DNA from: Candidatus Segetimicrobium genomatis | GTDB lineage: Bacteria > Sysuimicrobiota > Sysuimicrobiia > Sysuimicrobiales > Kaftiobacteriaceae | Reading direction: 5' to 3' | Assembly: GCA_005882295.1 (NCBI GenBank) | Contig: VBAI01000072.1 | Coordinates: 1-32,313, forward strand | Length of the DNA stretch: 32,313 nt | Translations under genes and position numbers: made by a program | In this document: piece after piece, positions 1 to 32,313 of the stretch | Numbering within the stretch: position 1 is the stretch's first letter | How the letters are laid out: each line of letters starts with the position of its first letter | The notes under the pieces: model-generated | Told to the model about the DNA's origin: nothing | Database searches by the model: none | What the model saw: the letters and a program-made list of their open reading frames with translations, nothing else

Positions 1-2312
1 AGAGAGGCCGGATTGACCACCAGGGTGTAGTCGCCGGGCGGCAGGTGGGAAAAAGCGAACGTTCCGTCGTCCGTGGACGTCGCAAACTGCTGGCGTGGCC
101 CCTGCAACTCGAAGACGACACCGCCGATGCCCTCCTCGTCGGGATCGCGGACACCGTTCCGATCGGCATCGAGGTAAACGATCCCGCTGAGCGTGGCGTC
201 AGGGACGAGGGCAAACTCGACGTTCGTACGGGCGCCGTCTGTGACCTGCACGGTGATGCGGGGCTGGGTCGTGACCAAGCCCACCGGGACGGTGTCGCCA
301 TCAAGTGTCAGGCGGTACTCGCCCTCCCTCAGTGCGTCGATGGACAGCCGCCCGTCGCGATCCGAGATCGCAGCCCGACGACCTTCGATCCGCATGATGA
401 CACCCGGCACACCAGGCTCATCGGGATCTTGTCTGCCGTTCTCGTTGCGATCCTGAAACACGACGCCCTCGAGCCGGCCGTTTGGAACGATCCCATAGGT
501 CATGATCGGATAACCGTATTGGACAGAAAGACTCGTGGTCGTACTTCCGGTGGAGTCGAACTGTATTCTAGGCCCCACCGAAAGGCGCGCGCCACCCGGC
601 AGGGCCGACGACACGCTCAACTCGACTATCGTCTGGCTGAACTCGGTCGGCAGGGTAAACACGTTGTTCTGCAGCTGAGCGATCAGATCGAGTTGGCTCG
701 ACAATCGAAAGCTCCAACCCGTTCCGACGCCCCAGCTCTCTGTGGCCCCAATCTGGCGCGAAATCTCCGCCCAGGCAGGCAGTCCCGTTTCCAGCGCGTA
801 CATAGTCTGCAATCTGAATGTGGCGCTGCTGCTCGTGGCACTGGTGAGCAGATCCGTCGTGTCGTTCTGGTTGGCGGCCAGCGTGAATGTCCACCGGTCC
901 TGCGTGTAGAATGCCGCGGCCTGCGTCCCGACGTTCCGCGTACTCACCCCTGTCGCGACATCATCGGTGAGGCGTGTCCCCAACGCGATCCCCCATCCGG
1001 GGGCCGGGCGGAAGCCCATCAGCAGGTCGTAGGACTGTCGGTTCGGCAGACCGCTGGCGCTGCCGTCGAGCAGCGCGGCGCTGCTGGAGATCGTCCAGCG
1101 GGGGTCCGGCATATACGCGAGTTGCAGCAGCGGGCCGCTGCGGCCAGTGAACAGCGTCGCGTTCCCGACCGCCGGGAAGTCTGCACCCACCACCAGGTAG
1201 CTGAGGGATGTTGACAACGTTGGCGAGGAGGCGACCGCGCCGATCCGCCACGCCGGCCCAGAGCCGGGACCGGACGCCCCCAGGGCCGTCTCGCCGAAGA
1301 TAGCCAGGCCCGGCGCCATCTCTCGGTCGGCGCGTACACGGGTGAGCAGCACCCCGATGGTGGGATCGTACAGAAGACCCACTTCAGACTGCCAGGGCCC
1401 TGACTGGGGGAAGAGCATCGTCATGCCGTAGACCTGACTGCTGGAGTCGGCGAGCGACCCGCCGAAGAACCGTGTCCCAGAGGCCCCCGCGTTCCCCTCG
1501 TAGGCGACGCCCAGGATGCCCTGCTGGTACAGCGTGAAAGGAGACTCATCGAGTACAAGTCCACCCACCGTGAATGTGTAGGCCGGGTTCCGGAGAACGA
1601 CCACCCCTGACGCATCGAGCGGACCGTTGCCCACGCCCACCCTCAGCAGGCCTTCAATATTCTCGGGGGCGCCGAACGACTTGTATTGCACGGTTGCCGT
1701 CGCGCTGAGCGTACCAGCTCCCGACGTCAGCCCCACGGCGATGTAGCCCGACGACGTGACGGGCGGCGTGAGATCCTGCTGGAACTCTAGGGCAAATGGA
1801 CGCGCAGTTGGCACGGGCGCCGTGACCTGGGGAGGGCGCGGAGGCTTGGCCGCCACTGCCGTCTGAAAGGGCGCGCGGGTGACGATGCTCACCAGGCCCT
1901 CCTGCGGATCCCAGGTGGTCAGCGTGTCGAACAGCGCGTCCACCGCGCCCCTGGGGATCATCGTCGCCCCGTTGACGAGACGCACCGGCGCGTCCAGGAG
2001 GGTGGTGACGACGTCGCCCGACCACACCTCCAGGCGATCGAGGCGCAGCGTCAACGTTGAGTCGTCGATGCGGTGGACCTCGACGGTCGGGGCGTTGAAC
2101 TTTGTCGTCGCTTGGAATCGCCTCGCCAGCGCGGCAAGGGGCAGGTAGACCGTACCGTCTTGCAGGAACCCCGGAGGGCTGACACTCAGCGGAACGTCGT
2201 CAACGACGACGCGGATCGGCGGCGCCGTACCCTGGCTGGGCACGGTCAGTCCCAGCGCCAGCATCGCCGCGCCCGTGACACCTATCCACCACCTGCGGAC
2301 ACGGGGCGTCAC
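1..2312 (-). CDS. Outer-membrane usher-like / beta-barrel protein: N-terminal copper-amine-oxidase-N-like stalk domain, central barrel-like region, C-terminal SdrD/SpaA-like B repeats; truncated by left window edge
   Basis: Not in the ORF track because it runs off the edge. Manual reverse translation from GTG at 2312 is open to position 1: VTPRVRRWWIGVTGAAMLALGLTVPSQGTAPPIRVVVDDVPLSVSPPGFLQDGTVYLPLAALARRF... and ends ...GRLEGVVFQDRNENGRQDPDEPGVPG...SGIVYLDADRNGVRDPDEEGIGGVVFELQ...DGTFAFSHLPPGDYTLVVNPAS. Confidence 0.8.
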   Translation of the reverse strand, partial: MTPRVRRWWIGVTGAAMLALGLTVPSQGTAPPIRVVVDDVPLSVSPPGFLQDGTVYLPLAALARRFQATTKFNAPTVEVHRIDDSTLTLRLDRLEVWSGDVVTTLLDAPVRLVNGATMIPRGAVDALFDTLTTWDPQEGLVSIVTRAPFQTAVAAKPPRPPQVTAPVPTARPFALEFQQDLTPPVTSSGYIAVGLTSGAGTLSATATVQYKSFGAPENIEGLLRVGVGNGPLDASGVVVLRNPAYTFTVGGLVLDESPFTLYQQGILGVAYEGNAGASGTRFFGGSLADSSSQVYGMTMLFPQSGPWQSEVGLLYDPTIGVLLTRVRADREMAPGLAIFGETALGASGPGSGPAWRIGAVASSPTLSTSLSYLVVGADFPAVGNATLFTGRSGPLLQLAYMPDPRWTISSSAALLDGSASGLPNRQSYDLLMGFRPAPGWGIALGTRLTDDVATGVSTRNVGTQAAAFYTQDRWTFTLAANQNDTTDLLTSATSSSATFRLQTMYALETGLPAWAEISRQIGATESWGVGTGWSFRLSSQLDLIAQLQNNVFTLPTEFSQTIVELSVSSALPGGARLSVGPRIQFDSTGSTTTSLSVQYGYPIMTYGIVPNGRLEGVVFQDRNENGRQDPDEPGVPGVIMRIEGRRAAISDRDGRLSIDALREGEYRLTLDGDTVPVGLVTTQPRITVQVTDGARTNVEFALVPDATLSGIVYLDADRNGVRDPDEEGIGGVVFELQGPRQQFATSTDDGTFAFSHLPPGDYTLVVNPAS

Positions 2313-2336
2313 AGCGATTCGTTTCCATCCCGCACA

Positions 2337-3167
2337 TCACGGCCCGCGGTAGACAAAGGTCAGCTCGCCTGATACCAGCACGTCGGCGCCGTAGTCGATG
2401 ACGGCGCGGACCGTGTAGGTCCCGGGACCCAAACTCTTGTCCCACGAGATCTTGAACTCTCGGACGCTGGCCGGCAACACCACGGCCTCAGGAAGCGGCA
2501 GCTTTCCGATGCGCTGGCCAGAGGCGTCGAGGAGTTCGATCTCGCCTCGAGTGTGCAGATGCACGTTACCCTTGTTGCGAAACGTGACCCTGATATCTGC
2601 GCCCGCACCGCGGGGCCGGGGGGCGGCAAGCATGTTTACGATGGCCCCCTGGACGACTTCCGTGCCGCGGATGGCGACCAGCAGGCGAGCCGCGAGCCGC
2701 GGCGCCACCACGACGAAGGTCGCCTTTCCCCCAGCCGGAGTCTGCAAGACCGGGGTCGAGCTAACGACGATCATCCCGTAGAGTCCACCCCGGGCGCCCG
2801 GCGGAACCGTCACCGCGATCCGCACCGGCATCTGCCGCTCCGGCTCGAGATCGAACTCGGCCGGCTGCACGCGCGTGTACCTGGCGACCGACCAGGGCAA
2901 CTTACCCGGCTCCAGCACATCGGCGACGCCATCGGGACGGATGTTGAGATCCTCCACGACCACGCGCATGCGCGCGGTATTCGGCGCTTTGTTGTATACG
3001 ACGAGGACGGCGCTAGCGGTTCCCCCGGAGGCCGGCACCAGTTCGATTTCACCAGGGCTGATGCCATACCGAATCGGTTGCGCGCCCGCGGGCAGGCTGC
3101 CGACGCCAAGCAGTGCGGCGAGGGGAACCAGCATGAGCCAAACCGTTGACCGGATGCGTCGTGTCAT
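2337..3167 (-). CDS. Secreted pilus-chaperone-like (P-pilus assembly chaperone-type Ig fold) protein
   Basis: 276 aa with signal peptide; IELVPASGGTASAVLVVYNKAPNTARMRVVVEDL... and a second Ig-like half; sits between pilin-like genes and the usher-like gene. Confidence 0.65.
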   Translation of the reverse strand: MTRRIRSTVWLMLVPLAALLGVGSLPAGAQPIRYGISPGEIELVPASGGTASAVLVVYNKAPNTARMRVVVEDLNIRPDGVADVLEPGKLPWSVARYTRVQPAEFDLEPERQMPVRIAVTVPPGARGGLYGMIVVSSTPVLQTPAGGKATFVVVAPRLAARLLVAIRGTEVVQGAIVNMLAAPRPRGAGADIRVTFRNKGNVHLHTRGEIELLDASGQRIGKLPLPEAVVLPASVREFKISWDKSLGPGTYTVRAVIDYGADVLVSGELTFVYRGP

Positions 3168-3200
3168 GGGCGTTTCAGGACCGCCTCAGGCACCGCTTCA

Positions 3201-3662
3201 TCAGAGCTCTGCGAGCAGGTAATCCACCCCGATCGTAAAATTCCCTGCGCTGTCGCCCCAGTCCACGCACTGCCTGTAGTAGACGGTGTGGTTGATGTTT
3301 GAGCCTTTTGGCTGGTTGGAGAAGACGTTCTGGTAGACGGCTGTGATAGGGAGGAACGGCCCCCCGGCCGCGGTGGCGAACCCGAAGGCATTGAACATCT
3401 CGGCGGAGGAGGCGTCCTTCGCCTTGCCGTTCGGGTAGGTCGCCGGCGTTGAACGGATGCGCAGATCGTAGTTCCTTGAGTTGCTGGTGACGGTGATGGT
3501 GGTTGAGGTGGTGCTGCAGAATGTCGGCAGGGTCGACCCGATCGTCGCAGCCGCCGGGACGGTGATGGTGAGGGCCGCCTCCGCATGGGGGGGCACCAAC
3601 AGTGTCACCAGCAGGGTCACACTGCAGGCGGCGACGATTTTCAGGATCCTGGGATGCATCAT
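3201..3662 (-). CDS. Secreted pilin-like / spore-coat-U-like subunit
   Basis: Part of tracked ORF 3201..3716; likely start at MMHPRILKIV with signal peptide (PHAEA). Paralogue of 3804..4301 (ITVPAAATIGS..., YPNGKAK, VYYRQCVDWGDSAGNFTIGVDYLL). Confidence 0.65.
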   Translation of the reverse strand: MMHPRILKIVAACSVTLLVTLLVPPHAEAALTITVPAAATIGSTLPTFCSTTSTTITVTSNSRNYDLRIRSTPATYPNGKAKDASSAEMFNAFGFATAAGGPFLPITAVYQNVFSNQPKGSNINHTVYYRQCVDWGDSAGNFTIGVDYLLAEL

Positions 3663-3720
3663 CCTCATCGGTCCCATCACCCTTGCCGAGGTCGCCCGGA
3701 CCATGGGCGCCGACACACAC

Positions 3721-3771
3721 CAGGGAGGCCGTTGCCGCCGGATCGCGACCGGTCGCGCATCAGCCTCCCTG
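3721..3771 (-). other. Intercistronic hairpin between the two pilin-like genes
   Basis: Perfect 9-bp arms CAGGGAGGC (3721-3729) / GCCTCCCTG (3763-3771) enclosing a perfect 14-bp palindrome CGCGACC|GGTCGCG (3744-3757). Confidence 0.6.
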
Positions 3772-3803
3772 CAGTTCTCTTGTTGGAGCGATCCCGGACG
3801 TGA

Positions 3804-4301
3804 TCAGTTCGAAGCCTGATACTCGGCGACGATCGTGTAATCACCTGCATCGTCGTCGTATGTGACACACTGCTTGTAGTAGACCGTCTTCGCAACACCC
3901 GCGCTTCCTGTCTTTGCCTGGCCGGTGAAGACATCCACGTAACTGGTGGTGATGTTGCTGAATGACGAGTTGTCGCCGCTCCACTGGAACTGATTCGTCA
4001 ATTCCACGCTGCCGTTCTTCGCCTTGCCGTTGGTGTATGCTGCGTTGGCCCGGACCTGCATGCTCCATACTTTGTTGCTCTTCAAGGTGATGCTGGTATT
4101 CGCCGTCCCGCAGCCCCCGGCGACTCCGGCATTGGCGCCGATTGACGCTGTGCCCGGGACTGTGATTTCGATCGCGTTCGCCGCAGTGATCGTCACTGTC
4201 TGGCTGCCCGTGGCCGTCGCCCCGTACCCGGCGCCGACCGCCACGGCAACGATGATCACGGCACCCAGGATAATCTGTATGAGTTTTGTCTGGCTCCGCA
4301 T
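3804..4301 (-). CDS. Secreted pilin-like / spore-coat-U-like subunit
   Basis: 165 aa, signal peptide, ITVPGTASIGANAGVAGGCGTANTSITLKSN...YTNGKAKNGS...VYYKQCVTYDDDAGDYTIVAEYQ; GGAGGAAGCACAG RBS. Confidence 0.7.
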   Translation of the reverse strand: MRSQTKLIQIILGAVIIVAVAVGAGYGATATGSQTVTITAANAIEITVPGTASIGANAGVAGGCGTANTSITLKSNKVWSMQVRANAAYTNGKAKNGSVELTNQFQWSGDNSSFSNITTSYVDVFTGQAKTGSAGVAKTVYYKQCVTYDDDAGDYTIVAEYQASN

Positions 4302-4379: not shown

Positions 4380-4395
4380 AGCAAGTCGCGTGCCA
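4380..4395 (-). promoter_or_regulatory. Sigma-54 (-24/-12) promoter for the pilin/usher operon
   Basis: Minus strand TGGCACG-CGAC-TTGCT, about 80 nt upstream of the ATG at 4301. Confidence 0.75.
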
Positions 4396-4599: not shown

Positions 4600-5196
4600 C
4601 TATACGAGCCCGGGATTGATGCGCATACTCGAGAGGTCTTCGCCAGTCAGGGAGTCATCGCCGTCGTCCGGCGAGCCATTGGTGCCGGAGAGCTCAGGAT
4701 TACTACCCTGAGGTCCGGAGGCCAGCGCTCCCCGGAGTGCGGCATTCAGATCGTCCAGGTAGCGCGCCAGGGTCAACCGCAAGACCCCGAGTTGCGAAGC
4801 GGCGCCGATCACGACCGCCACCACTGGCCCCAGCGGCGCCATCACCACGGCACGTCCGCCGTACACCACCATCACGGCTTCGGGCGCGCCAAACGCGGCA
4901 CTCTCTCCCAGACGCTCTCCCACCATCACAGCACTGGCCGCGTAGGCCGCCAGGGCGTCGAGGTCGGCGTGGATGTCACCCACGGAGTGCAACACCGCCC
5001 CATCACCTGACAGTAGCAGGACGCTCTGAGCCGCCGACTGCCGCCGCAGCTCGGTGAGCACACCCTGCAGTTGTGCGTGGGATTGCGATTCGTCGGCCAC
5101 AGCAGTGTTGTACCCGCGGCGTGCGTCCACTAGCCCAGCGTCAGGCCACGACCGTGGCGTTCGAATCTCCGCGGTCTGGGCCACGGCTCTCCCCAT
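4600..5196 (-). CDS. Roadblock/LC7-domain protein (true start uncertain; may begin at GTG 5130 or 5100)
   Basis: LQGVLTELRRQSAAQSVLLLSGDGAVLHSVGDIHADLDALAAYAASAVMVGERLG...EAVMVVYGGRAVVMAPLGPVVAVVIGAASQLGVLRLTLARYLDDL resembles roadblock/LC7. Confidence 0.6.
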   Translation of the reverse strand: MGRAVAQTAEIRTPRSWPDAGLVDARRGYNTAVADESQSHAQLQGVLTELRRQSAAQSVLLLSGDGAVLHSVGDIHADLDALAAYAASAVMVGERLGESAAFGAPEAVMVVYGGRAVVMAPLGPVVAVVIGAASQLGVLRLTLARYLDDLNAALRGALASGPQGSNPELSGTNGSPDDGDDSLTGEDLSSMRINPGLV

Positions 5197-5950
5197 CCAG
5201 CCACGACCGCAGGGCGAGGTGGGTGCGCAGCGATTGCAACGCCTCCCCGCGCATCTGACTCACCCGCGACTCGGTCACGCCCAGGACACGGCCAATCTCC
5301 CACAATGTAAGTCCCTCGCAGTAGTATAGTCCGACCACGACCTTATGCCGAACCGGCAGTGCCTCGATGGCATGCCACAGGTCCGCATCACGCGCCTGTT
5401 GTTCGATGCTCCCCATGACGTCGCCGCCGGCATCTCGGGCCAGCGCCTCGGGGAAACGGCCGGCGTCCCCGAACTCGTCCAGCGACAGCGGCAATGCCGC
5501 GTGCTGATCGGTGCGGGCCTTGCCCAACTGGCGGGTGGCCATCCCGGTCGCCTTAGCCAGCTCGTCGTCGGTGGGGAGACGGCCGAGCCGCCGCGTCAGC
5601 GCGTGTATCTGCGCCTGCACCCGGTGCACGTTGCGCCGCGCGATCCGCGGCAGCAGGTCCAGCGTGCGCAGATAGTCATACATGGCGCCGCGGATTCGCA
5701 GCCGGGCGAACGCCTCAAACGGGATGCCGCGGTCGGTATCGAACCGGTCGATTGCCTCCAGGAGACCGATCATGCCGTAGCCTTCCAGATCTTCGCTCTT
5801 CACCGTGGGCGGGACACGACCAGTCATCTGCCTGGCTTGCGTGCGGACCAGGGGAAGATATGCCAGGGCCAGACGCTCGCGCACCACCGCGGTGCGCGCG
5901 TCTTTGAACGCTTGCCACAAGGTTGTGACAGACTGGGGATCCCTGGCCAT
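5141..5950 (-). CDS. FliA/WhiG-family RNA polymerase sigma factor
   Basis: MARDPQSVTTLWQAFKDARTAVVRERLALAYLPLVRTQARQMTGRVP...DLEGYGMIGLLEAIDRFD...RIRGAMYDYLRTLD...GLTLWEIGRVLGVTESRVSQMRGEALQSLR; regions 2 and 4 clear. Confidence 0.88.
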   Translation of the reverse strand: MARDPQSVTTLWQAFKDARTAVVRERLALAYLPLVRTQARQMTGRVPPTVKSEDLEGYGMIGLLEAIDRFDTDRGIPFEAFARLRIRGAMYDYLRTLDLLPRIARRNVHRVQAQIHALTRRLGRLPTDDELAKATGMATRQLGKARTDQHAALPLSLDEFGDAGRFPEALARDAGGDVMGSIEQQARDADLWHAIEALPVRHKVVVGLYYCEGLTLWEIGRVLGVTESRVSQMRGEALQSLRTHLALRSWLDGESRGPDRGDSNATVVA

Positions 5951-5960
5951 GCACCGCTCC

Positions 5961-7004
5961 TTAGGAAATGTCGGCCAGCGCTGAGGCGGCGCGCTGCAGC
6001 AGCGCGTCCGGCGATTCATCCTGTTCGGCGCTGCCGACGACGCTCAGGCGCATGGGCAGCGGCGACACCGTGGTCTGCCGCAGCTCTCGTTGCGCCACAC
6101 GGACCACGCGGTCGACGATGATCGAGGCCTTCTCCCGGTCGAGGCCGGCGAACAGCAGGCCAAATCGCCGCCCGCCCAAATTTGCCGCAAGATCGCAAGT
6201 GCGCATCGCCGCCGCGACATGGTGGGTCAGCGCCCCGACGACCGCGGCGCGTTCGGGTCCCGCAGCGATGTCCACCTCCAGCAGCGCCACGGCGAACTCG
6301 GTGGTGTGCTGGCGGGTCCGCTGCAACTCCTCCTCCAGGCGGGCCGTGAAGTGATGGCTGTTGCTGAGTCCGGTCTCGCCATCCTGATAGACCAGTTCGC
6401 GCAGCCGTTCCTCCCGGCGGAGTTTCGAGAGAGTCTGTGCCAGTGACTCCGCCAGCCGGCCCAGCCGCTCGAACTCGCCCTCGGTGAAGGTGCGGTCCGT
6501 GCGGGCGAGGGCCAGGACGCCGGCGACGATGCCCTGCTGCACAAGGGGAAAGGCCAGGAATGCGCGCAGCGCCGCGTCGCCAAACGGTGAACGGTGTCCG
6601 TTGGATCCGGGATCGGGGATCACCACCGGCCGGCCTTCCTGCGCCACCCAGGCGGAGAGCCCTGAGCCGCGGGCGAACCGGATCCGGTCGGCCAGCTCCA
6701 CGCGGTTCCCGCGAACCGCCACAGGCAGGAGCCGCCCGCTGGTCCATTCAGTGACGTACAGGGTGCCGTGTTCAAAGGAAAGAGTCCGGTGAACCAGATC
6801 GAGGTAGCGGGTGTAGGCCAGCCGCAGCGGCAACTGCTCGTCGGCGAGCTTCACGCACTCCAGCCGCAGCGCCATCTCCTCCGCCTCCGTGGCGAGGCCC
6901 TGGCCGTTGCGGGGCGCTGACTCACCACCGGCACTACCGGAGTCGGGCGCGTACGCGGGTGCCCGTTCAGGCTGAGACCGACTGCGTCGACTGCGTTGCG
7001 CCAT
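5961..7004 (-). CDS. GAF-domain protein with degenerate GGDEF domain (GGRRF)
   Basis: GAF region ARGSGLSAWVAQEGRPVVIPD...; GGDEF-like region LVYQDGETGLSNSHHFTARLEEEL...LGGRRFGLLFAGLDREKA. Start ATG 7004 preferred because the sigma-54 promoter at 7064-7079 puts the start site near 7052. Confidence 0.75.
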   Translation of the reverse strand: MAQRSRRSRSQPERAPAYAPDSGSAGGESAPRNGQGLATEAEEMALRLECVKLADEQLPLRLAYTRYLDLVHRTLSFEHGTLYVTEWTSGRLLPVAVRGNRVELADRIRFARGSGLSAWVAQEGRPVVIPDPGSNGHRSPFGDAALRAFLAFPLVQQGIVAGVLALARTDRTFTEGEFERLGRLAESLAQTLSKLRREERLRELVYQDGETGLSNSHHFTARLEEELQRTRQHTTEFAVALLEVDIAAGPERAAVVGALTHHVAAAMRTCDLAANLGGRRFGLLFAGLDREKASIIVDRVVRVAQRELRQTTVSPLPMRLSVVGSAEQDESPDALLQRAASALADIS

Positions 7005-7063: not shown

Positions 7064-7079
7064 AGCAAGGAGCGTGCCA
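7064..7079 (-). promoter_or_regulatory. Sigma-54 promoter upstream of the GAF-GGDEF / FliA-like sigma / roadblock genes
   Basis: Minus strand TGGCACG-CTCC-TTGCT. Confidence 0.75.
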
Positions 7080-7240: not shown

Positions 7241-8608
7241 TTATTTCGCTTCCGCCAGCGGACCCCGGGCCGTCGACGGCGGGACGTTCATCTCTTCGCG
7301 GTACTTCGTCACGGTGCGGCGGGCGATCTTCGTGCCCTCGGCCGTCAGCAGGCGGGCCATCTGCTCGTCGGTGAGCGGGTCTGTCTCCGCGGCGATGAGC
7401 GCGCGGATCCGCTCTTTCACGGGCAGCGATTGATCGAAGAAGAGCTCGAAACTCACCACACGGCCGCTGGGGAGCTGTGCGAACTTGCCGTCCAGCGCGC
7501 GGCTAACCGTGGACTCGCTGATGCCGAGCTCCGCAGCGATCATGGCCTTGGTCAGCGGCTTCATGTGCGCCTCACCGCGCTGGATGAACTCCCACTGCGT
7601 CTGCACGATGGTCTTCACGATGCTGGCGAACGTCCAGTTGCGGCGCGCCAGGACCTCGATGAACAACTTGGCGCGGCCGACGTAGTCGCGGACGTGATCA
7701 CGGGACTTGTCAGAATAGCCGGAGGCGGCGCGGCGCATCTGCCGCCGCAAATCACCGTAAAAGGCGTTGACGCGGAGCGCGAAGGCATCCTGCCGGCACA
7801 GCTCCACGGCGAAGCCTTCCTCGGTCTGGCGGATGATGACATCGGGGCGCGCCACTTCGGCCGGGCGGACCGCCCCGCCGTCCTGCTCGCTGCGGTACCG
7901 CTCACCCGGATAGGGGTAGCAATTGGCCTTCACGAACTCGTGCGCATCTTTGACCTCGGGGATGGTCACCCCGAGATCCTTGGCTACTTTCTCAAACCGC
8001 CGCGCGGCCAGGTCCGGCAGATGGGTCTCCACCAGCCGCTGGGCCAGCCGGTTCGCGGCGCCTGGCTCCATCACCCGGAGTTGCAAGAGCAGACACTCTT
8101 CCACGTTGCGCGCGCCGACGCCGACGGGCTCGAAGCGCTGGATGCGAGCCAGGACCGCCTCGACCTCTTCGACCTCGGCGTTCAGCTCCTGGGCCACCTG
8201 CACCGCGGTGGCTTCCATGTACCCGTTGTCGTTGATGTAGCCGATGAGCCGTTCACCGATGGCGTGGTCGCGGGCGGAGAGCCCCTGCGCCTGCAGCGTC
8301 ATCAGCAGGTGCTCCTGCAGCGACACCGGCGCCGCCATGCGGGCGAAGGGATCGAACTCCTCGTCGTCAGGCGTCCAGTTCGTCAGCGACTGCCCGCCTT
8401 CGTCACCCGACCAGTCGGCGTCCGCAGAGGCGGGCACCTCGTCCAGTTCCAGAGCAGGGTTCTCGGAAAGCTCCTGCTCAATGCGGGCCAGCAACTGATG
8501 GAGGGGCAGGACCAGGAGCGCATTCACCATCATCAGCTTGGGCACCATGCGCTGGTGCAGCTGCGGGTTGACGCCGAGTGATGCGTGAATGCGCGGATCC
8601 ATCGACAT
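7241..8608 (-). CDS. rpoN: RNA polymerase sigma-54 factor
   Basis: Full-length RpoN: region I, core-binding domain, HTH (MIAAELGISESTVSRAL) and RpoN box ARRTVTKYRE. Confidence 0.95.
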   Translation of the reverse strand: MSMDPRIHASLGVNPQLHQRMVPKLMMVNALLVLPLHQLLARIEQELSENPALELDEVPASADADWSGDEGGQSLTNWTPDDEEFDPFARMAAPVSLQEHLLMTLQAQGLSARDHAIGERLIGYINDNGYMEATAVQVAQELNAEVEEVEAVLARIQRFEPVGVGARNVEECLLLQLRVMEPGAANRLAQRLVETHLPDLAARRFEKVAKDLGVTIPEVKDAHEFVKANCYPYPGERYRSEQDGGAVRPAEVARPDVIIRQTEEGFAVELCRQDAFALRVNAFYGDLRRQMRRAASGYSDKSRDHVRDYVGRAKLFIEVLARRNWTFASIVKTIVQTQWEFIQRGEAHMKPLTKAMIAAELGISESTVSRALDGKFAQLPSGRVVSFELFFDQSLPVKERIRALIAAETDPLTDEQMARLLTAEGTKIARRTVTKYREEMNVPPSTARGPLAEAK

Positions 8609-26170: not shown

Positions 26171-27168
26171 TGCCGCGCCAATGGCAACTGAATCATGAAT
26201 GTGGCGCCCTCGCCTGGAGGGCTGCTCGCCTCGATGGTGCCTTGATGATCTTTGATGATCCCGTAGGCGATGGAGAGGCCCAACCCCGTCCCGTGCCCGA
26301 CTTCCTTGGTCGTGAAGAACGGGTCGAAGATCCGCTGCTCCAACCCCTTCGGGATCCCCGGGCCGGTGTCGGAGAACGTGAGGTCCACGCGCTCCTGGCT
26401 GACCGCGCTGCGGATGCGGAGCACCTTGACGGGCGCGCTGGCCAGCGCATCCCGGGCGTTGGCGAGCACGTTCATGAACACCTGCTCGAGCTGGATGGGG
26501 CTGCCCGTGACCACGGGATTGGCAGTACTCAGGTCGAGGTCAATGGTAATATCCCGCAGCCGCAGCTGCTCGCGGAGGAGATCCAGCGCACGCAGCACAA
26601 CCTCGTTGATCGCCACCTCTTCGTACCCGACCGGAGCGAGGCGGCCGAAGGTACGCAGGTGCGAGATGATCTCCGTGGCCTTGCGTACTTGTTGCACCGC
26701 GGCATGGAGGTCGGCCAGCACGCGCCCCTTGTCCAGCCGGCCCAGTTCCACGAGGTCGATGATGTTCCCCAGGAAGAGCCCGATGTTGTTCAGCGGGTTG
26801 TTCAGCTCGTGGGCAATGCCGGTGGTCAGTTCGCCGAGCGTGGCCAGCTTGCCGGCCTGGACCAGTTGCTCCTGTTTGTCACGCAGCTCCTGCTCGCGCC
26901 GGGCGATTTCCTCCGTGGTCTTGCGCAGATCGTCCATGATGTGGATCAACGCCTTGCGCGCGTGCTCCAGCCGGAGATTGGACTGGTGCTGGTCCTGCAG
27001 GATGTGCAGCATCGCGCGGCGGTGGTCCTCGCGCAGCCGCAGCCGCTGGTCCAGGGTCTGCACCAGCCGGCGCAGCCGATCGACCTCGAGCCGTAGCTCG
27101 GCGTCGCGCGGTTCAGCGGGGCCGGTCGCCGCCGCCCGGACAGACGGGGCCACCTGCGCGGTGGACAT
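26167..27168 (-). CDS. Histidine kinase (HisKA-HATPase)
   Basis: LGELTTGIAHELNNPLNNIGLFLGNI...QLEQVFMNVLANARDAL...FSDTGPGIPKGLEQRIFDPFFTTKEVGHGTGLGLSIAYGII. Confidence 0.94.
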   Translation of the reverse strand: MSTAQVAPSVRAAATGPAEPRDAELRLEVDRLRRLVQTLDQRLRLREDHRRAMLHILQDQHQSNLRLEHARKALIHIMDDLRKTTEEIARREQELRDKQEQLVQAGKLATLGELTTGIAHELNNPLNNIGLFLGNIIDLVELGRLDKGRVLADLHAAVQQVRKATEIISHLRTFGRLAPVGYEEVAINEVVLRALDLLREQLRLRDITIDLDLSTANPVVTGSPIQLEQVFMNVLANARDALASAPVKVLRIRSAVSQERVDLTFSDTGPGIPKGLEQRIFDPFFTTKEVGHGTGLGLSIAYGIIKDHQGTIEASSPPGEGATFMIQLPLARQ

Positions 27169-28508
27169 CAGGACGCGCCTCGCTCGGTTCGCAGGCGCGC
27201 GACGTCCGCCCGCACCTGCTCCAGCTCCTTCTCCAGCGCGATCATCTTCAGCTCACGGCCGACCACGACTTCCTCGAACTTTTCCAGCTCCAGGACCTTC
27301 TCTTGCAGCTCGGTGCGCGACTTCACCAGATCGCGCACCACCTGCTCGTACTCGCGCATATCCCGCAGGATGCCGATCGCGCCGATCACGCGGCCATCCA
27401 GGTCGCGTAGGTTGCTGGCGTTGAGGGTCGTGGGAATGACCTCGCCGCTGGCGCTGCGGGGGTTCAGGCGGACGTTGCGCGTGACCCCACGCTCCACGAC
27501 CTCCCGCAGGGCGGCGACAAACTCCTGCGTCTCCTGAGGGGAGATAAACCGCGACAGCGACTGCTCGATCAGTTCATCCGGCCGGAACCCCAGCAGCTCG
27601 GAGCAGGCGTCGTTGACCTGGAGGATCTTGCCTTCCAGGTCGGACACGAACACCGGGTCTGGGGCGTTCTTGATCAGGCTCTCTGCGTAGGCGCGCGCCT
27701 TGTCCAGCTCGCGCATGTCCCGCAGGATGCCGATCGCGCCGATCGCCCTCCCCTCCACATCGCGCAGGGCGCTGGCGTTGAGGGTCGTAGGGATGACCTC
27801 GCCGGTCGCGCTGCGGGGGTTCAGACGGGCGTCGCGTGTAACCCCGCGCTCCACGACCTCCCGCAGGGCCACGACGAACTCTTTTGTCTCTTGGGGAGAG
27901 ATGAACCGCGACAGCGACTGCTCGATCAGTTCATCCGGCCGGAACCCCAGCAGCTCGGAGCAGGCGTCGTTGACCTGGAGGATCTTGCCTTCCAGGTCGG
28001 AGACGAACACCGGGTCTGGGGCGTTTTTGATCAGGCTCTCTGCGTAGGCGCGCGCCTTGTCCAGCTCGCGCATGTCCCGCAGGATGCCGATCGCGCCGAT
28101 CACGTTCCCATCACCGTCCCGCAGCGCGGACGCGTTCAGCGTCGTGGGGATGACCTCGCCCATCGCGCTGCGTGGGCTAAGCACGACGTTGCGCGTGACG
28201 CCACGCTCCACCACCTCTCGCAACGCCGCCAGGAACTCTTGCGTCTCATGAGCCGAGATGAAACGCGACAGCGACTGCTCAATGAGTTCGGCCGGCCGGA
28301 ACCCCAGCAGTTCATACACCGCATCGTTGGCCTGCAGAATCTTCCCTTCGAGATCGGCGACGAACACCGGATCCGGGGCGTTGCGGATGATGATGTTTGC
28401 GTCTAGTTGCGCGTGCGACCTGATCCCATCCCTCTCTGCATCTGTCATCGTCTCCGGCACGCCGACAGACGTGCCGGCCTTGTCGATGACACCCTTACGT
28501 CTGGCCAT
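27168..28508 (-). CDS. Protein with three tandem near-identical PAS domains and C-terminal coiled coil
   Basis: Three copies of NAPDPVFVxDLEGKILQxNDAxxELLGFRPxELIEQSLSRFIS...GAIGILRDMRE. Confidence 0.92.
   Translation of the reverse strand: MARRKGVIDKAGTSVGVPETMTDAERDGIRSHAQLDANIIIRNAPDPVFVADLEGKILQANDAVYELLGFRPAELIEQSLSRFISAHETQEFLAALREVVERGVTRNVVLSPRSAMGEVIPTTLNASALRDGDGNVIGAIGILRDMRELDKARAYAESLIKNAPDPVFVSDLEGKILQVNDACSELLGFRPDELIEQSLSRFISPQETKEFVVALREVVERGVTRDARLNPRSATGEVIPTTLNASALRDVEGRAIGAIGILRDMRELDKARAYAESLIKNAPDPVFVSDLEGKILQVNDACSELLGFRPDELIEQSLSRFISPQETQEFVAALREVVERGVTRNVRLNPRSASGEVIPTTLNASNLRDLDGRVIGAIGILRDMREYEQVVRDLVKSRTELQEKVLELEKFEEVVVGRELKMIALEKELEQVRADVARLRTERGAS
27355..28440. 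repeat. Three ~360-bp intragenic tandem repeats (PAS-coding units)
   Basis: Block cgcatRtcccgcaggatgccgatcgcgccgatc recurs at about 27355, 27714 and 28074. Confidence 0.85.
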
Positions 28509-28760: not shown

Positions 28761-28858
28761 GACCCCATCCGATAAAGGCAAACCCGTCGTGAGGCGGGGA
28801 CGCAAAGCCGCGGGTCAGGTGGGAAACCTGACAGCCGGGCTGCCGAAGAAGGGGAAGT
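28761..28858 (+). promoter_or_regulatory. Cyclic di-GMP-I (GEMM-I) riboswitch aptamer 1
   Basis: GACCCCATCCGATAAAGGCAAACCCGTCGTGAGGCGGGGACGCAAAGCCGCGGGTCAGGTGGGAAACCTGACAGCCGGGCTGCCGAAGAAGGGG: conserved GGCAAACC, GGACGCAAAGCC, AGCCGGGCTGCCGA. Confidence 0.93.
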
Positions 28859-28866
28859 TCGGACTT

Positions 28867-28894
28867 GGCGGTCTTCCGCACCGAGGAGACCGCC
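28867..28894 (+). promoter_or_regulatory. Shine-Dalgarno-sequestering hairpin (riboswitch 1 expression platform)
   Basis: GGCGGTCT TCCGCACCGAGG AGACCGCC immediately before ATG 28895; the purine-rich GAGGAG lies in the 3' arm. Confidence 0.7.
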
Positions 28895-31570
28895 ATGTTT
28901 TGTGTTCGAGCATCTGGTATTCGCCGGTGCGTGCCTGCCGTGCTGATTCTGGTGATGGCTGCGGCGACGGTGTCTATCCCCGCGCCCGCCGTCGTCCGGG
29001 CCGCCACCCTCCCCGAACTCCCCCGCGTGTACCTCGACACCACTGTGATCCCGCCCACCGGACGCATTCTCACCGTCCCCGCCGGCGGTGATGTGCAGGG
29101 TGCGCTGAATGCAGCCCAATCGGGCGATGTCGTCGAACTGCAGGCCGGCGCGGCATTCCTCGGATCCTTCTCGCTGCCCCGCCGCACCGGGTGGGTGACC
29201 GTGCGCTCCTCAGCGTGGGCCAGCCTCCCCCCGCCCGGGACCCGCGCCACCCCTGCTCACGCGCCCCTCATGGCCAAGCTCGACGGCGGGGGAAGTGTCG
29301 TCCTGCAGGGTGGGTCGCATGTCCGCCTGATTGGCCTGGAGCTCACCAGCGCCACCACCGGCAGCATCGTGGAGCTGGGAGGCGCGGACAACATCGTCGT
29401 GGATCGATCCTGGATTCACGGCACTCCCACGGGCGACGTCCGGCATGGGATCCAGGCGAACGGCAGCAGGATTGCGGTTGTGGATTCTGCCATCACCGAC
29501 ATCCATCACCGCAGCGCCGACGCGCAGGCCATCGACGCCTACGATGGGTGGGGACCCTTCAAAATCGTGAATAACTACCTCCAGGCCTCCGGGGAGAACG
29601 TCCTCTTCGGCGGCTGGGATCCCAGCACGTCGGGGCTGGTGGCCTCCGACATCGAGGTCAGGGGCAACTACTTCACCAAGCCCCTGTCCTGGAAGGCCGA
29701 CGATCCCTCCTATGCGGGCACCCGCTGGGTGGTCAAAAACCTCTTCGAGCTCAAGAACGCGCAGCGCGTCGTGATCGATGGCAACATCTTTGAGTACAAC
29801 TGGACTCAGGCGGATCAGGGCGGCTTCGCGATCCTCTTCACCCCCCGCAATCAGACCGGAGCCGCCCCCTGGTCCACAGTGCAGGACGTCACCTTCATCC
29901 ACAACATCGTGCGGCACTCCACCGCCGGCGTCCAACTCATGGGCTGGGACAACCTCTACCCCAGCCAGCAACTCCAACGTGTCCTTATCCAGCACAATCT
30001 CTTTCTCAACATCGGCGAGTTCCCCGATTCGGTGTATGGGGTCTACACGGGTATGCTCTTTAACGTCTGGGATGGACCCGCCGACCTGACCATCGACCAT
30101 AACACGACCTTCCAGACTGCGCTTCCTCTCTACGCCATGACCCATATCGCCAGTTATTGGCCGGGCACTGGATTCCGGTATACCAACAGCATCACCAACA
30201 GCGCCGCCGGCAACTGGACCACGTGGTTGAATACCTACTTCCCCGGCGCGGTCTTTACCAACGATGCGATGATCGGGGGTACGGCGGGGAGCTACCCGGC
30301 AGGCAACTTTTTCCCGGCCTCGCTCGATTCGGTCGGCTTCGCCAACCTCGCCGGGGGGGACTACCACCTCGCCCCCACGAGCCCCTACAAGAACGCCGCT
30401 ACCGACGGCAAAGATCCCGGCGCCGATATCGATGCCTTGACGGCGGCCACGGCCAGCGCCCTCAGCGGGGGTGGAACCGGGGGCGGCCCTGCTCCCTCCC
30501 CAGTCTCAGTCTCCCCAAGTAACGTCGCTTTCGGTCTAGTGACGGTAGGCACGACCAGCCCGGCGGCGGATATTCAGGCTTTCAATCCCAGCGCGGCCGG
30601 GGTGACGCTCAGCAGCGTCGCCATTACCGGCCCGTTCGTGATCACCCAGAACCATTGCCTGGCGACGAACACCTGGAACGGCGTCATCCCTCCAGGCACA
30701 CACTGCGACATGTTCGTGGTCTTTGCCCCGGCGGTGGGCGGCGCGGCGACCGGCAGGCTGAACATCAGCGTGGCGGGCAGCGTGTATCCGGTGATGCTGT
30801 CCGGCACAGGCGCGGCTGCGGCGGACACCACGCCGCCGTCAATCCCATCCGGCCTGACCGCCACCGTCATCAGTTCCTCGCAGATCACCCTGGCCTGGTC
30901 GCCGTCGACCGACAATGTGGCGGTCTCCGGGTACAACGTCTTCAGAAATGGCACCCTCATCGGGATCGTCAGAAGCACGACTGGCTATCAGGATGCGGGA
31001 CTGTCGGCAGCGACGACCTATGGCTACATGGTGGCAGCGTTTGATGCGGCCGGCAATACATCGGCACCGTCGTCGCCGGCATCGGCCACCACCACGCCGG
31101 CGGGGAGTCGGTCGCCCTATGGAGGGGCGCCCTGGGCCATACCTGGGGTGGTCCAGGCCGAGAACTTCGACGTCGGAGGGGAGGGTGTCGCGTACCATGA
31201 CACCACGCCGGGTAACCAGGGCGGGCAATACCGCATGGATGTCGACGTCGATATCATTGCCGACAACGGCCGCTACGTTATCAATAACTTCCAGACTGGG
31301 GAATGGCTGGAGTATACAATCAACGTCACGGCGACGGGAGTATATCGGATCGAGGTGCTGGTCAGCAGCCAGTTCAGTGCAAGCCGGTTTCGCATGGCGC
31401 TCGACGGACAGAACGTGACTGGCTCGCTATCTGTTCCGAATACGGGGAGTTGGCACACCTTCCAATGGGTGGGGGCGAGCGGGGTGGGGCTGACGATGGG
31501 TCTGCACGTCCTGCGGGTCTATGCGGACCAGCAGTACTTCAACCTCGATGCCATCCGCATCAGAAAATGA
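28895..31570 (+). CDS. Large secreted protein: parallel beta-helix, ASPM/SPD-2/Hydin-like domain, FN3, C-terminal CBM6-like domain
   Basis: Signal peptide; beta-helix repeats (RVVIDGNIFEYN, VLIQHNLFLNI); SPSNVAFGLVTVGTTSPAADIQAFNPS; FN3 DTTPPSIPSGLTATVISSSQITLAWSPSTDNVAVSGYNVFRNG; CBM6 AENFDVGGEGVAYHDTTPGNQGGQYRMDVDVDI...NLDAIRIRK. Confidence 0.88.
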   Translation: MFCVRASGIRRCVPAVLILVMAAATVSIPAPAVVRAATLPELPRVYLDTTVIPPTGRILTVPAGGDVQGALNAAQSGDVVELQAGAAFLGSFSLPRRTGWVTVRSSAWASLPPPGTRATPAHAPLMAKLDGGGSVVLQGGSHVRLIGLELTSATTGSIVELGGADNIVVDRSWIHGTPTGDVRHGIQANGSRIAVVDSAITDIHHRSADAQAIDAYDGWGPFKIVNNYLQASGENVLFGGWDPSTSGLVASDIEVRGNYFTKPLSWKADDPSYAGTRWVVKNLFELKNAQRVVIDGNIFEYNWTQADQGGFAILFTPRNQTGAAPWSTVQDVTFIHNIVRHSTAGVQLMGWDNLYPSQQLQRVLIQHNLFLNIGEFPDSVYGVYTGMLFNVWDGPADLTIDHNTTFQTALPLYAMTHIASYWPGTGFRYTNSITNSAAGNWTTWLNTYFPGAVFTNDAMIGGTAGSYPAGNFFPASLDSVGFANLAGGDYHLAPTSPYKNAATDGKDPGADIDALTAATASALSGGGTGGGPAPSPVSVSPSNVAFGLVTVGTTSPAADIQAFNPSAAGVTLSSVAITGPFVITQNHCLATNTWNGVIPPGTHCDMFVVFAPAVGGAATGRLNISVAGSVYPVMLSGTGAAAADTTPPSIPSGLTATVISSSQITLAWSPSTDNVAVSGYNVFRNGTLIGIVRSTTGYQDAGLSAATTYGYMVAAFDAAGNTSAPSSPASATTTPAGSRSPYGGAPWAIPGVVQAENFDVGGEGVAYHDTTPGNQGGQYRMDVDVDIIADNGRYVINNFQTGEWLEYTINVTATGVYRIEVLVSSQFSASRFRMALDGQNVTGSLSVPNTGSWHTFQWVGASGVGLTMGLHVLRVYADQQYFNLDAIRIRK

Positions 31571-31817: not shown

Positions 31818-31913
31818 GACCCCATCCGATAAAGGCACCCCGCCTGTGAAGGCGGTCCGCAAAGCCACGGGTCAGGTGATGAACCTGACAGCCGGGCTGC
31901 CGAAGAAGGGGAT
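31818..31913 (+). promoter_or_regulatory. Cyclic di-GMP-I (GEMM-I) riboswitch aptamer 2
   Basis: GACCCCATCCGATAAAGGCACCCCGCCTGTGAAGGCGGTCCGCAAAGCCACGGGTCAGGTGATGAACCTGACAGCCGGGCTGCCGAAGAAGGGG. Confidence 0.92.
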
Positions 31914-31951: not shown

Positions 31952-32313
31952 ATGTTTGTTGCTGGCCAAGCCATACGCGTCCGCACGCTACCCGCGCTGT
32001 TGATCGTCGCGGTCGCGATGCTTTCGCGGCCCGCTCTCCTGCCCGCGGCGAACGCTTCCGTGCTTCCGGAGCGTCCACGCGTCATTCTCGATACGACCTA
32101 CGTCCCCCCGACGGGCCGGACGCTGGCGGTGCCTGCCGGCGGCGATCTCCAGGCGGCCCTGAATGCCGCCGTCGGAGGGGATGTCATCACCCTGCAGGCC
32201 GGGGCGACGTTCTCGGGCCCGTTCACGCTTCCCAACAAGAGCGGCACCGGGTGGATCATCGTGCGCACCAGTGCCGCGGATAGCACCCTCCCGCCGCCGG
32301 GGACCCGCATTAC
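31952..32313 (+). CDS. Secreted beta-helix protein, paralogue of 28895..31570; truncated by right window edge
   Basis: MFVAGQAIRVRTLPALLIVAVAMLSRPALLPAANASVLPERPRVILDTTYVPPTGRTLAVPAGGDLQAALNAAVGGDVITLQAGATFSGPFTLPNKSGTGWIIVRTSAADSTLPPPGTRI. Confidence 0.85.
   Translation, partial: MFVAGQAIRVRTLPALLIVAVAMLSRPALLPAANASVLPERPRVILDTTYVPPTGRTLAVPAGGDLQAALNAAVGGDVITLQAGATFSGPFTLPNKSGTGWIIVRTSAADSTLPPPGTRI

Follow-up and report, generated by a model that had tools for sequence, protein, structure and literature searches.

Classical and alternative chaperone-usher pili have been reported in Proteobacteria, and the archaic type in Cyanobacteria and Deinococcus-Thermus as well (PMC4654587). In the Gram-positive WxL system, a hairpin of WxLIP that is unstructured on its own is predicted to become ordered and to complete the WxL sandwich where this has a gap (PMC10599100). 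By analogy, the logic of this hairpin is that of donor-strand complementation. The window analysed here is a stretch of 32,313 nucleotides, the entire contig C137 of a metagenome-assembled genome (MAG) of Candidatus Segetimicrobium, a soil bacterium of the little-known phylum Sysuimicrobiota (2.86 Mb in 317 contigs). On the minus strand, its bases 1-4301 encode two small secreted pilin-like proteins, a protein with two Ig-like domains and a β-barrel protein whose gene is open at the window edge. These four open reading frames lie where an earlier note on this DNA had placed them, and the peptides it quoted were found in the sequence. Our conclusion is that the operon probably encodes a chaperone-usher-like pathway of fibre assembly which uses a chaperone of the WxLIP family. 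In the open-licence literature, we found no description of a WxLIP-type chaperone combined with a barrel, nor of WxL joined to chaperone-usher systems or to a donor strand.

A WxLIP-like chaperone, an usher-like barrel and two subunits

The candidate periplasmic chaperone (2337..3167, minus strand) has 276 residues and two Ig-like domains, and matches no Pfam family at cut-off. A profile built from 25 homologues identified a single significant family in the PDB, the Enterococcus WxLIP (E 3.3e-8), and found no PapD-type chaperone there; with the eight nearest homologues alone, WxLIP was still the best PDB match, but at E 0.04. Two Ig domains are predicted in the AlphaFold model (pLDDT 86), with an uncertain stretch at about residues 138-156. 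Foldseek placed the WxLIP entry 9i25_C first in the PDB (E 1.4e-11), followed by CfaA (E 6.8e-9), CsuC (1.3e-8), FimC (2e-8) and then Caf1M. By sequence and by fold, the nearest known relative of the chaperone is thus the Gram-positive WxLIP, a kinship that the earlier note had not suspected, although the predicted folds support its reading of a putative chaperone and usher. Like WxLIP (DUF916-DUF3324; Enterococcus faecium 9i25/9i1y), the window protein has two Ig domains, a candidate flexible hairpin and small secreted β proteins as neighbours. Unlike WxLIP, with which it shares 15% identity, it has no C-terminal membrane helix (its C-terminus, ending in FVYRGP, contains no hydrophobic segment), occurs in genomes with Omp85 and has an outer-membrane barrel as its partner. 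DUF916 (PF06030) is not found in the window chaperone and scores above cut-off in the family member L030 (32.1 bits). The candidate donor hairpin lies at the end of domain 1 (residues ~138-156; 2700..2756, minus strand), where the monomer model has low confidence, and by analogy it may be equivalent to the hairpin of WxLIP.

The archaic and alternative chaperones CsuC, CfaA and EcpB share with the window the double-Ig fold (Foldseek E ~1e-8) and the pilin-chaperone-barrel order. They differ in that the window chaperone shows neither PapD_N nor PapD_C at cut-off; among eight members of its family, PapD_N (PF00345) was found in none and PapD_C (PF02753) in one, at E 0.009 only. A profile of 23 barrel-linked chaperones aligned with five E. 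coli FimC-type chaperones co-linearly over both domains (hhalign 58%; controls, 0.4% for the reversed profile and 1.1% for the anchored chaperone group), which is suggestive, but not proof, of shared descent.

The usher-like outer-membrane barrel gene (3..2312, minus strand) has 770 of its approximately 810 codons in the window. Contig C130 of the same MAG shares the window's first 44 bases at its end and supplies the remaining 40 codons (..PGKPIIKQTFP*); an Nfu-like gene comes next, as it does in relatives. At about 810 residues, the full-length protein agrees in size with its relatives (about 796-811). Since C130 completes the gene, the region left of position 1, where the earlier note had proposed to look for them, holds no plug, extra C-terminal domain or tip adhesin that the window lacks. 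Pfam identified an N-terminal Cu_amine_oxidN1 (stalk) domain (PF07833; residues 37-143, 1884..2204, minus strand; E 1.4e-8, 35 bits against a cut-off of 24.2) and SdrD_B (PF17210) in two C-terminal stretches (E 7e-20, 71.7 bits against 29.7), which bears out the copper-amine-oxidase-type start and SdrD-type repeats that had been noticed by eye. The first SdrD_B-like domain spans 195..485 (minus strand) and is conserved outside the phylum, and the second (3..194, minus strand; residues 708-766) is truncated by the contig end, its remainder lying on C130. The same arrangement, PF07833 at the N-terminus and SdrD_B at the C-terminus, was present in all seven family members scanned.

Between these ends (495..1760, minus strand), an AlphaFold2 model of the full-length orthologue from L017 (80% identical; pLDDT 75) places about 26 barrel strands within residues 186-607, where ushers of chaperone-usher systems have 24. 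The longest gap between strands is about 15 residues, so that no plug insertion is seen. In a Foldseek search of the PDB with this protein, ranks 1-11 were all FimD or PapC (E 3e-17 to 1.7e-13), above all porins and TonB receptors. With the two Ig domains of the chaperone, this large usher-type barrel, as modelled, completes the pair of folds on which the earlier note had staked its reading. As in FimD/PapC ushers (PF00577), which provide the best PDB folds, an N-domain, a large barrel and two C-terminal β-sandwich domains follow one another in the same order. The two β-sandwich domains, an usher hallmark, are present here as SdrD_B domains, and the periplasmic N-domain is PF07833 rather than PapC_N; in other members of the family, it is T2SS-T3SS_pil_N or NPCBM-Ig. 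The barrel protein also differs from FimD/PapC in lacking the plug and PF00577. The latter is absent from the window protein, all relatives scanned, the own genome and 22 chaperone-bearing genomes, and a canonical usher is thereby ruled out. With hhalign, run on single domains and with far relatives included, the barrel showed no relation to FimD barrels and the N-domains no match, and the C-terminal domain pair gave a weak co-linear match (9%) to the C-terminal domains of FimD; four E. coli ushers were compared, hence the power is low. The likeness to archaic chaperone-usher loci claimed in the earlier note holds for gene order and fails for sequence (no PF00577, no PapD_N, no detectable barrel similarity to FimD). 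By their defining tests, as applied to sequence, the system is outside the described chaperone-usher families.

Two further observations concern the barrel proteins. A motif shared by several far members, GDxxxxxSxL..G, was considered as the LGD hairpin that precedes the plug in FimD and was rejected, as shuffled sequence scored at least as well against its profile as E. coli ushers did. After the SdrD domains, a C-terminal motif of approximately P[IV][RK] with F within a few residues recurs in L009, L010, L011, L014, L112, L128 and L137, with examples, including some from unrelated genomes, such as ..KPVIKKTFP, ..RPIRRVEF and ..MVKKTFPN.

The first pilin-like subunit, P0001 (3804..4301, minus strand), has a signal peptide, homologues at the same place in seven relatives, and conserved Cys64 and Cys145. 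Its mature N-terminus carries an alternating stretch ahead of the aligned core, with GSQTVTITAAN as the candidate donor strand. The mature form of the second, P0002 (3201..3668, minus strand; longest open reading frame from 3716, start placed by homology to L009:12037-12501), begins at the core, the donor-strand extension being absent, and we infer from its sequence that P0002 is a candidate tip subunit. A Pfam scan gave no family for either protein, and the WxL domain PF13731 was not found in them, in their relatives or in ten subunits from elsewhere. The sole match beyond the system is to two subunits of L022 (L022:3100-8246, an Actinomycetota MAG), which hhalign aligned with the pilin-like family of the window (96%). 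Three anchored WxLIP-like genes stand beside those two subunits.

Distribution of the operon and anchoring of the chaperone

Within Sysuimicrobiota, the chaperone was found in 8 of 43 genomes, and the operon is retained in all eight. The loci that were read (L009-L015) have the order pilin-like gene(s), chaperone, barrel. Loci of the own family usually have an Nfu-like gene downstream and, upstream, one gene whose small product looks like a roadblock protein and another for a FliA-like sigma factor (these names were assigned by reading the sequence). The barrel gene is frame-shifted in L013 (14436-16836) and split into two frames in L016 (1509-3943), through either mutation or sequencing error.

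A total of 385 genomes, 342 of them outside the phylum, were searched with the chaperone and, independently, with the C-terminal domain pair. Each query was positive in 35 of the 385. Outside the phylum, both features occur in 12 genomes against 2.1 expected (p 3.6e-8, a value that ignores relatedness), and domain-pair matches are as strong as E 1e-33. In 18 of 18 loci from 17 genomes and 16 families (L112, L113, L114, L116, L117, L121, L123, L124, L126, L128, L129, L130, L131 and L134-L138), the chaperone is followed on the same strand by a gene encoding an N-domain, a barrel and the SdrD pair. Four of these (L130, L131, L134 and L135) were found through the domain pair alone, yet each has a chaperone upstream; L133, the one domain-pair locus read with its flanks and without a chaperone, shows no barrel signal either. 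The gaps between chaperone and barrel are mostly below 90 bp and reach about 480-660 bp in L135-L137; in L113, where the domain pair matches weakly, a short open reading frame separates the two genes. The count leaves aside L139, where both genes are on one contig in differing orientations, and the loci read do not include the weaker, mostly single-domain matches of the domain-pair search.

The N-domains outside the phylum are varied: PF07833 in L126 and L129 (slightly below cut-off in L129), T2SS-T3SS_pil_N in L114, L116 and L117 (below cut-off in L117), and Ig/NPCBM in L121 and L124. PF00577 was found in none of the ten barrel proteins scanned outside the phylum, and no NCBIfam model names those that were tried. 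In most, the stretch ahead of the domain pair shows an excess of polarity alternation, as FimD barrels do. Small secreted proteins, many with a terminal GxYxxxIxYT-like strand, are encoded upstream of the chaperone in most of these loci. The chaperones at L121:7653-8675 and L138:3147-4274 end in a dockerin-like EF-hand tail (FDFDNSGRVDERDVDALAALL), which is unusual for the family.

The own genome has Omp85, and an outer membrane is therefore expected. Across 25 genomes checked, the chaperone lacks a C-terminal hydrophobic segment in all 20 with Omp85 (highest 19-residue mean 1.72) and is anchored in all five without it (19-residue mean 2.4 or more), the latter being the Actinomycetota MAG, Patescibacteria and allies (Fisher p 1.9e-5, ignoring relatedness). 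The secretin-linked members L023 and L035 belong to the same chaperone family, are likewise unanchored and come from Omp85 genomes, but differ in that the adjoining outer-membrane protein is a PF00263 secretin instead of an SdrD-tailed barrel. More broadly, tandem double chaperone copies or a secretin take the barrel's place in L111, L118, L120, L122, L023 and L035 (PF00263 shown for the last two). A tree of 47 chaperones groups these labels, with 7 changes against a shuffled mean of 20.2. In it, the window family is nearest to the secretin-linked group, with weak support, and it is possible from these sequences that the pairing with a barrel arose once or more often.

Promoter-like site and other features of the window

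The first pilin-like gene is preceded, at a distance of 94 nt, by an exact sigma-54 promoter-like site (TGGCACGCGACTTGC; 4381..4395, minus strand). The window holds two exact sites where shuffling predicts 0.10. With at most one mismatch allowed, every one of the seven own-family loci has a site 69-100 nt ahead of the pilin-like gene; the more distant L015 has none upstream at this tolerance. Genes that look like rpoN and NtrC are also in the window. The second exact site (7065-7079, minus strand) closely precedes a GGDEF-looking gene and adjoins the rpoN-looking gene (7241-8608), and the same distance is seen in L009.

Upstream of the operon and also on the minus strand are the genes for the small roadblock-looking protein (4600..5196; same place in L009, L010, L012, L013 and L014) and the flagellar-type (FliA-like) sigma factor (5141..6019; same place in L009, L010, L012 and L014), both recognised by reading. 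Further away, two c-di-GMP-I-GGC riboswitches on the plus strand (28768-28848, 75.7 bits; 31825-31905, 63.4 bits) are each followed closely by a gene whose product looks secreted; the first of these genes spans 28865-31570, and the second begins at 31952. The protein encoded at 27168-28508 (minus strand) contains three near-identical, PAS-looking tandem repeats of about 115 residues each, whose sequence suggests a recent duplication.

Assembly model, alternatives and implications

In its mode of action, the operon most likely parallels a chaperone-usher pathway. Gene order, domains, conservation, linkage and the promoter site are taken from sequence, and the folds from prediction; strand donation, export and a fibre product are what we infer. 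Subunits would be secreted to the periplasm as incomplete β sandwiches, and the soluble WxLIP-like protein would lend them a strand of its hairpin, keeping them ready for assembly. The barrel protein would receive these complexes through its N-domain and its two SdrD-type domains, all of them presumably periplasmic. Subunits would then leave through the pore as the chaperone's strand gives way to the N-terminal strand of the subunit that follows. P0001, having such a strand, would polymerise, and P0002, without one, would sit at the tip. Judged by the promoter-like site, expression may be governed by sigma-54.

Several observations weigh against this proposal. The modelled barrel lacks a plug domain, and the model was built from 7 sequences (pTM 0.45), three of the five models being near pLDDT 50 and two good. 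Foldseek TM-scores for the barrel protein are low (0.3-0.4), and usher entries consisting of the barrel alone barely exceed porins (2e-8 against 1.4e-7), so that the lead of FimD is owed partly to the extra β domains. Comparison of the subunits with Pfam, PDB sequences and FimA-type pilins placed them in neither a pilin nor a WxL family, and a two-domain tip adhesin is absent from the system. Seven loci (L111, L115, L118-L120, L122 and L127) have the chaperone without an adjoining SdrD-tailed barrel gene. Finally, those WxLIP proteins that have been studied, which the chaperone resembles, function at the cell wall and not in transport.

This last point leads to the alternative that survives best, a WxL-like surface layer in which the two-Ig protein is a scaffold that keeps small proteins of the WxL type attached to the wall or the outer membrane, with the barrel as an anchor or porin and no polymerisation by strand exchange. 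WxLIP has been described to bind and stabilise WxL at the cell wall (PMC10599100), and the closeness of the chaperone to the E. faecium protein in sequence and fold, together with similar small secreted proteins adjoining the anchored homologues of Patescibacteria and the Actinomycetota MAG, would fit such a layer. We nevertheless regard it as unlikely: the membrane anchor is absent from every version in an Omp85 genome, the linked barrel protein is usher-like by Foldseek, and no subunit matches the WxL family. Less probable still is true membership of the chaperone-usher superfamily, with a sequence divergence too great for the relation to be detected. The Foldseek rankings of both proteins, the alignment between barrel-linked and FimC-type chaperones, the weak match of the domain pair to FimD and the single PapD_C hit all point that way. 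This is countered by the lack of PF00577 in any of the 22 chaperone-bearing genomes searched and of any Pfam match at threshold, by a barrel dissimilar to FimD in the low-powered comparison with four ushers, and by the missing plug and N-domains drawn from other families. A barrel of the intimin or adhesin type that exposes its SdrD domains extracellularly, with the remaining genes unrelated to it, can be set aside as very improbable: SdrD_B is best known from surface adhesins and MSCRAMM matches were obtained, but the about 26 strands of the model far exceed the 12 of intimin, an even strand count leaves both barrel ends periplasmic and so speaks against an exposed SdrD passenger, and the linkage with the chaperone is constant.

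A broader interpretation of the proposed fibre assembly pathway can be offered tentatively, and we lean somewhat against it at present. WxL/WxLIP surface systems, which operate with one membrane, and chaperone-usher pili, which operate with two, could be branches of one strand-donation machine, and the operon could be a third branch with features of both. Under such a scheme, the same chaperone family would be anchored in cells that have no outer membrane; in those that have one, it would be soluble and have a barrel or a secretin as its partner.

The counterpart described here is missed by the standard models (PF00577, PF00345 and NCBIfam) and occurs in 17 of the 342 genomes sampled outside the phylum. 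If the proposed function is true, fibre assembly by strand donation would be far more widespread. Since the barrel seems plug-less in its model, the system may also bear on the minimal requirements of an usher. In addition, it offers a direct route to testing for a common ancestry of chaperone-usher pili and the WxL system of Gram-positive bacteria.

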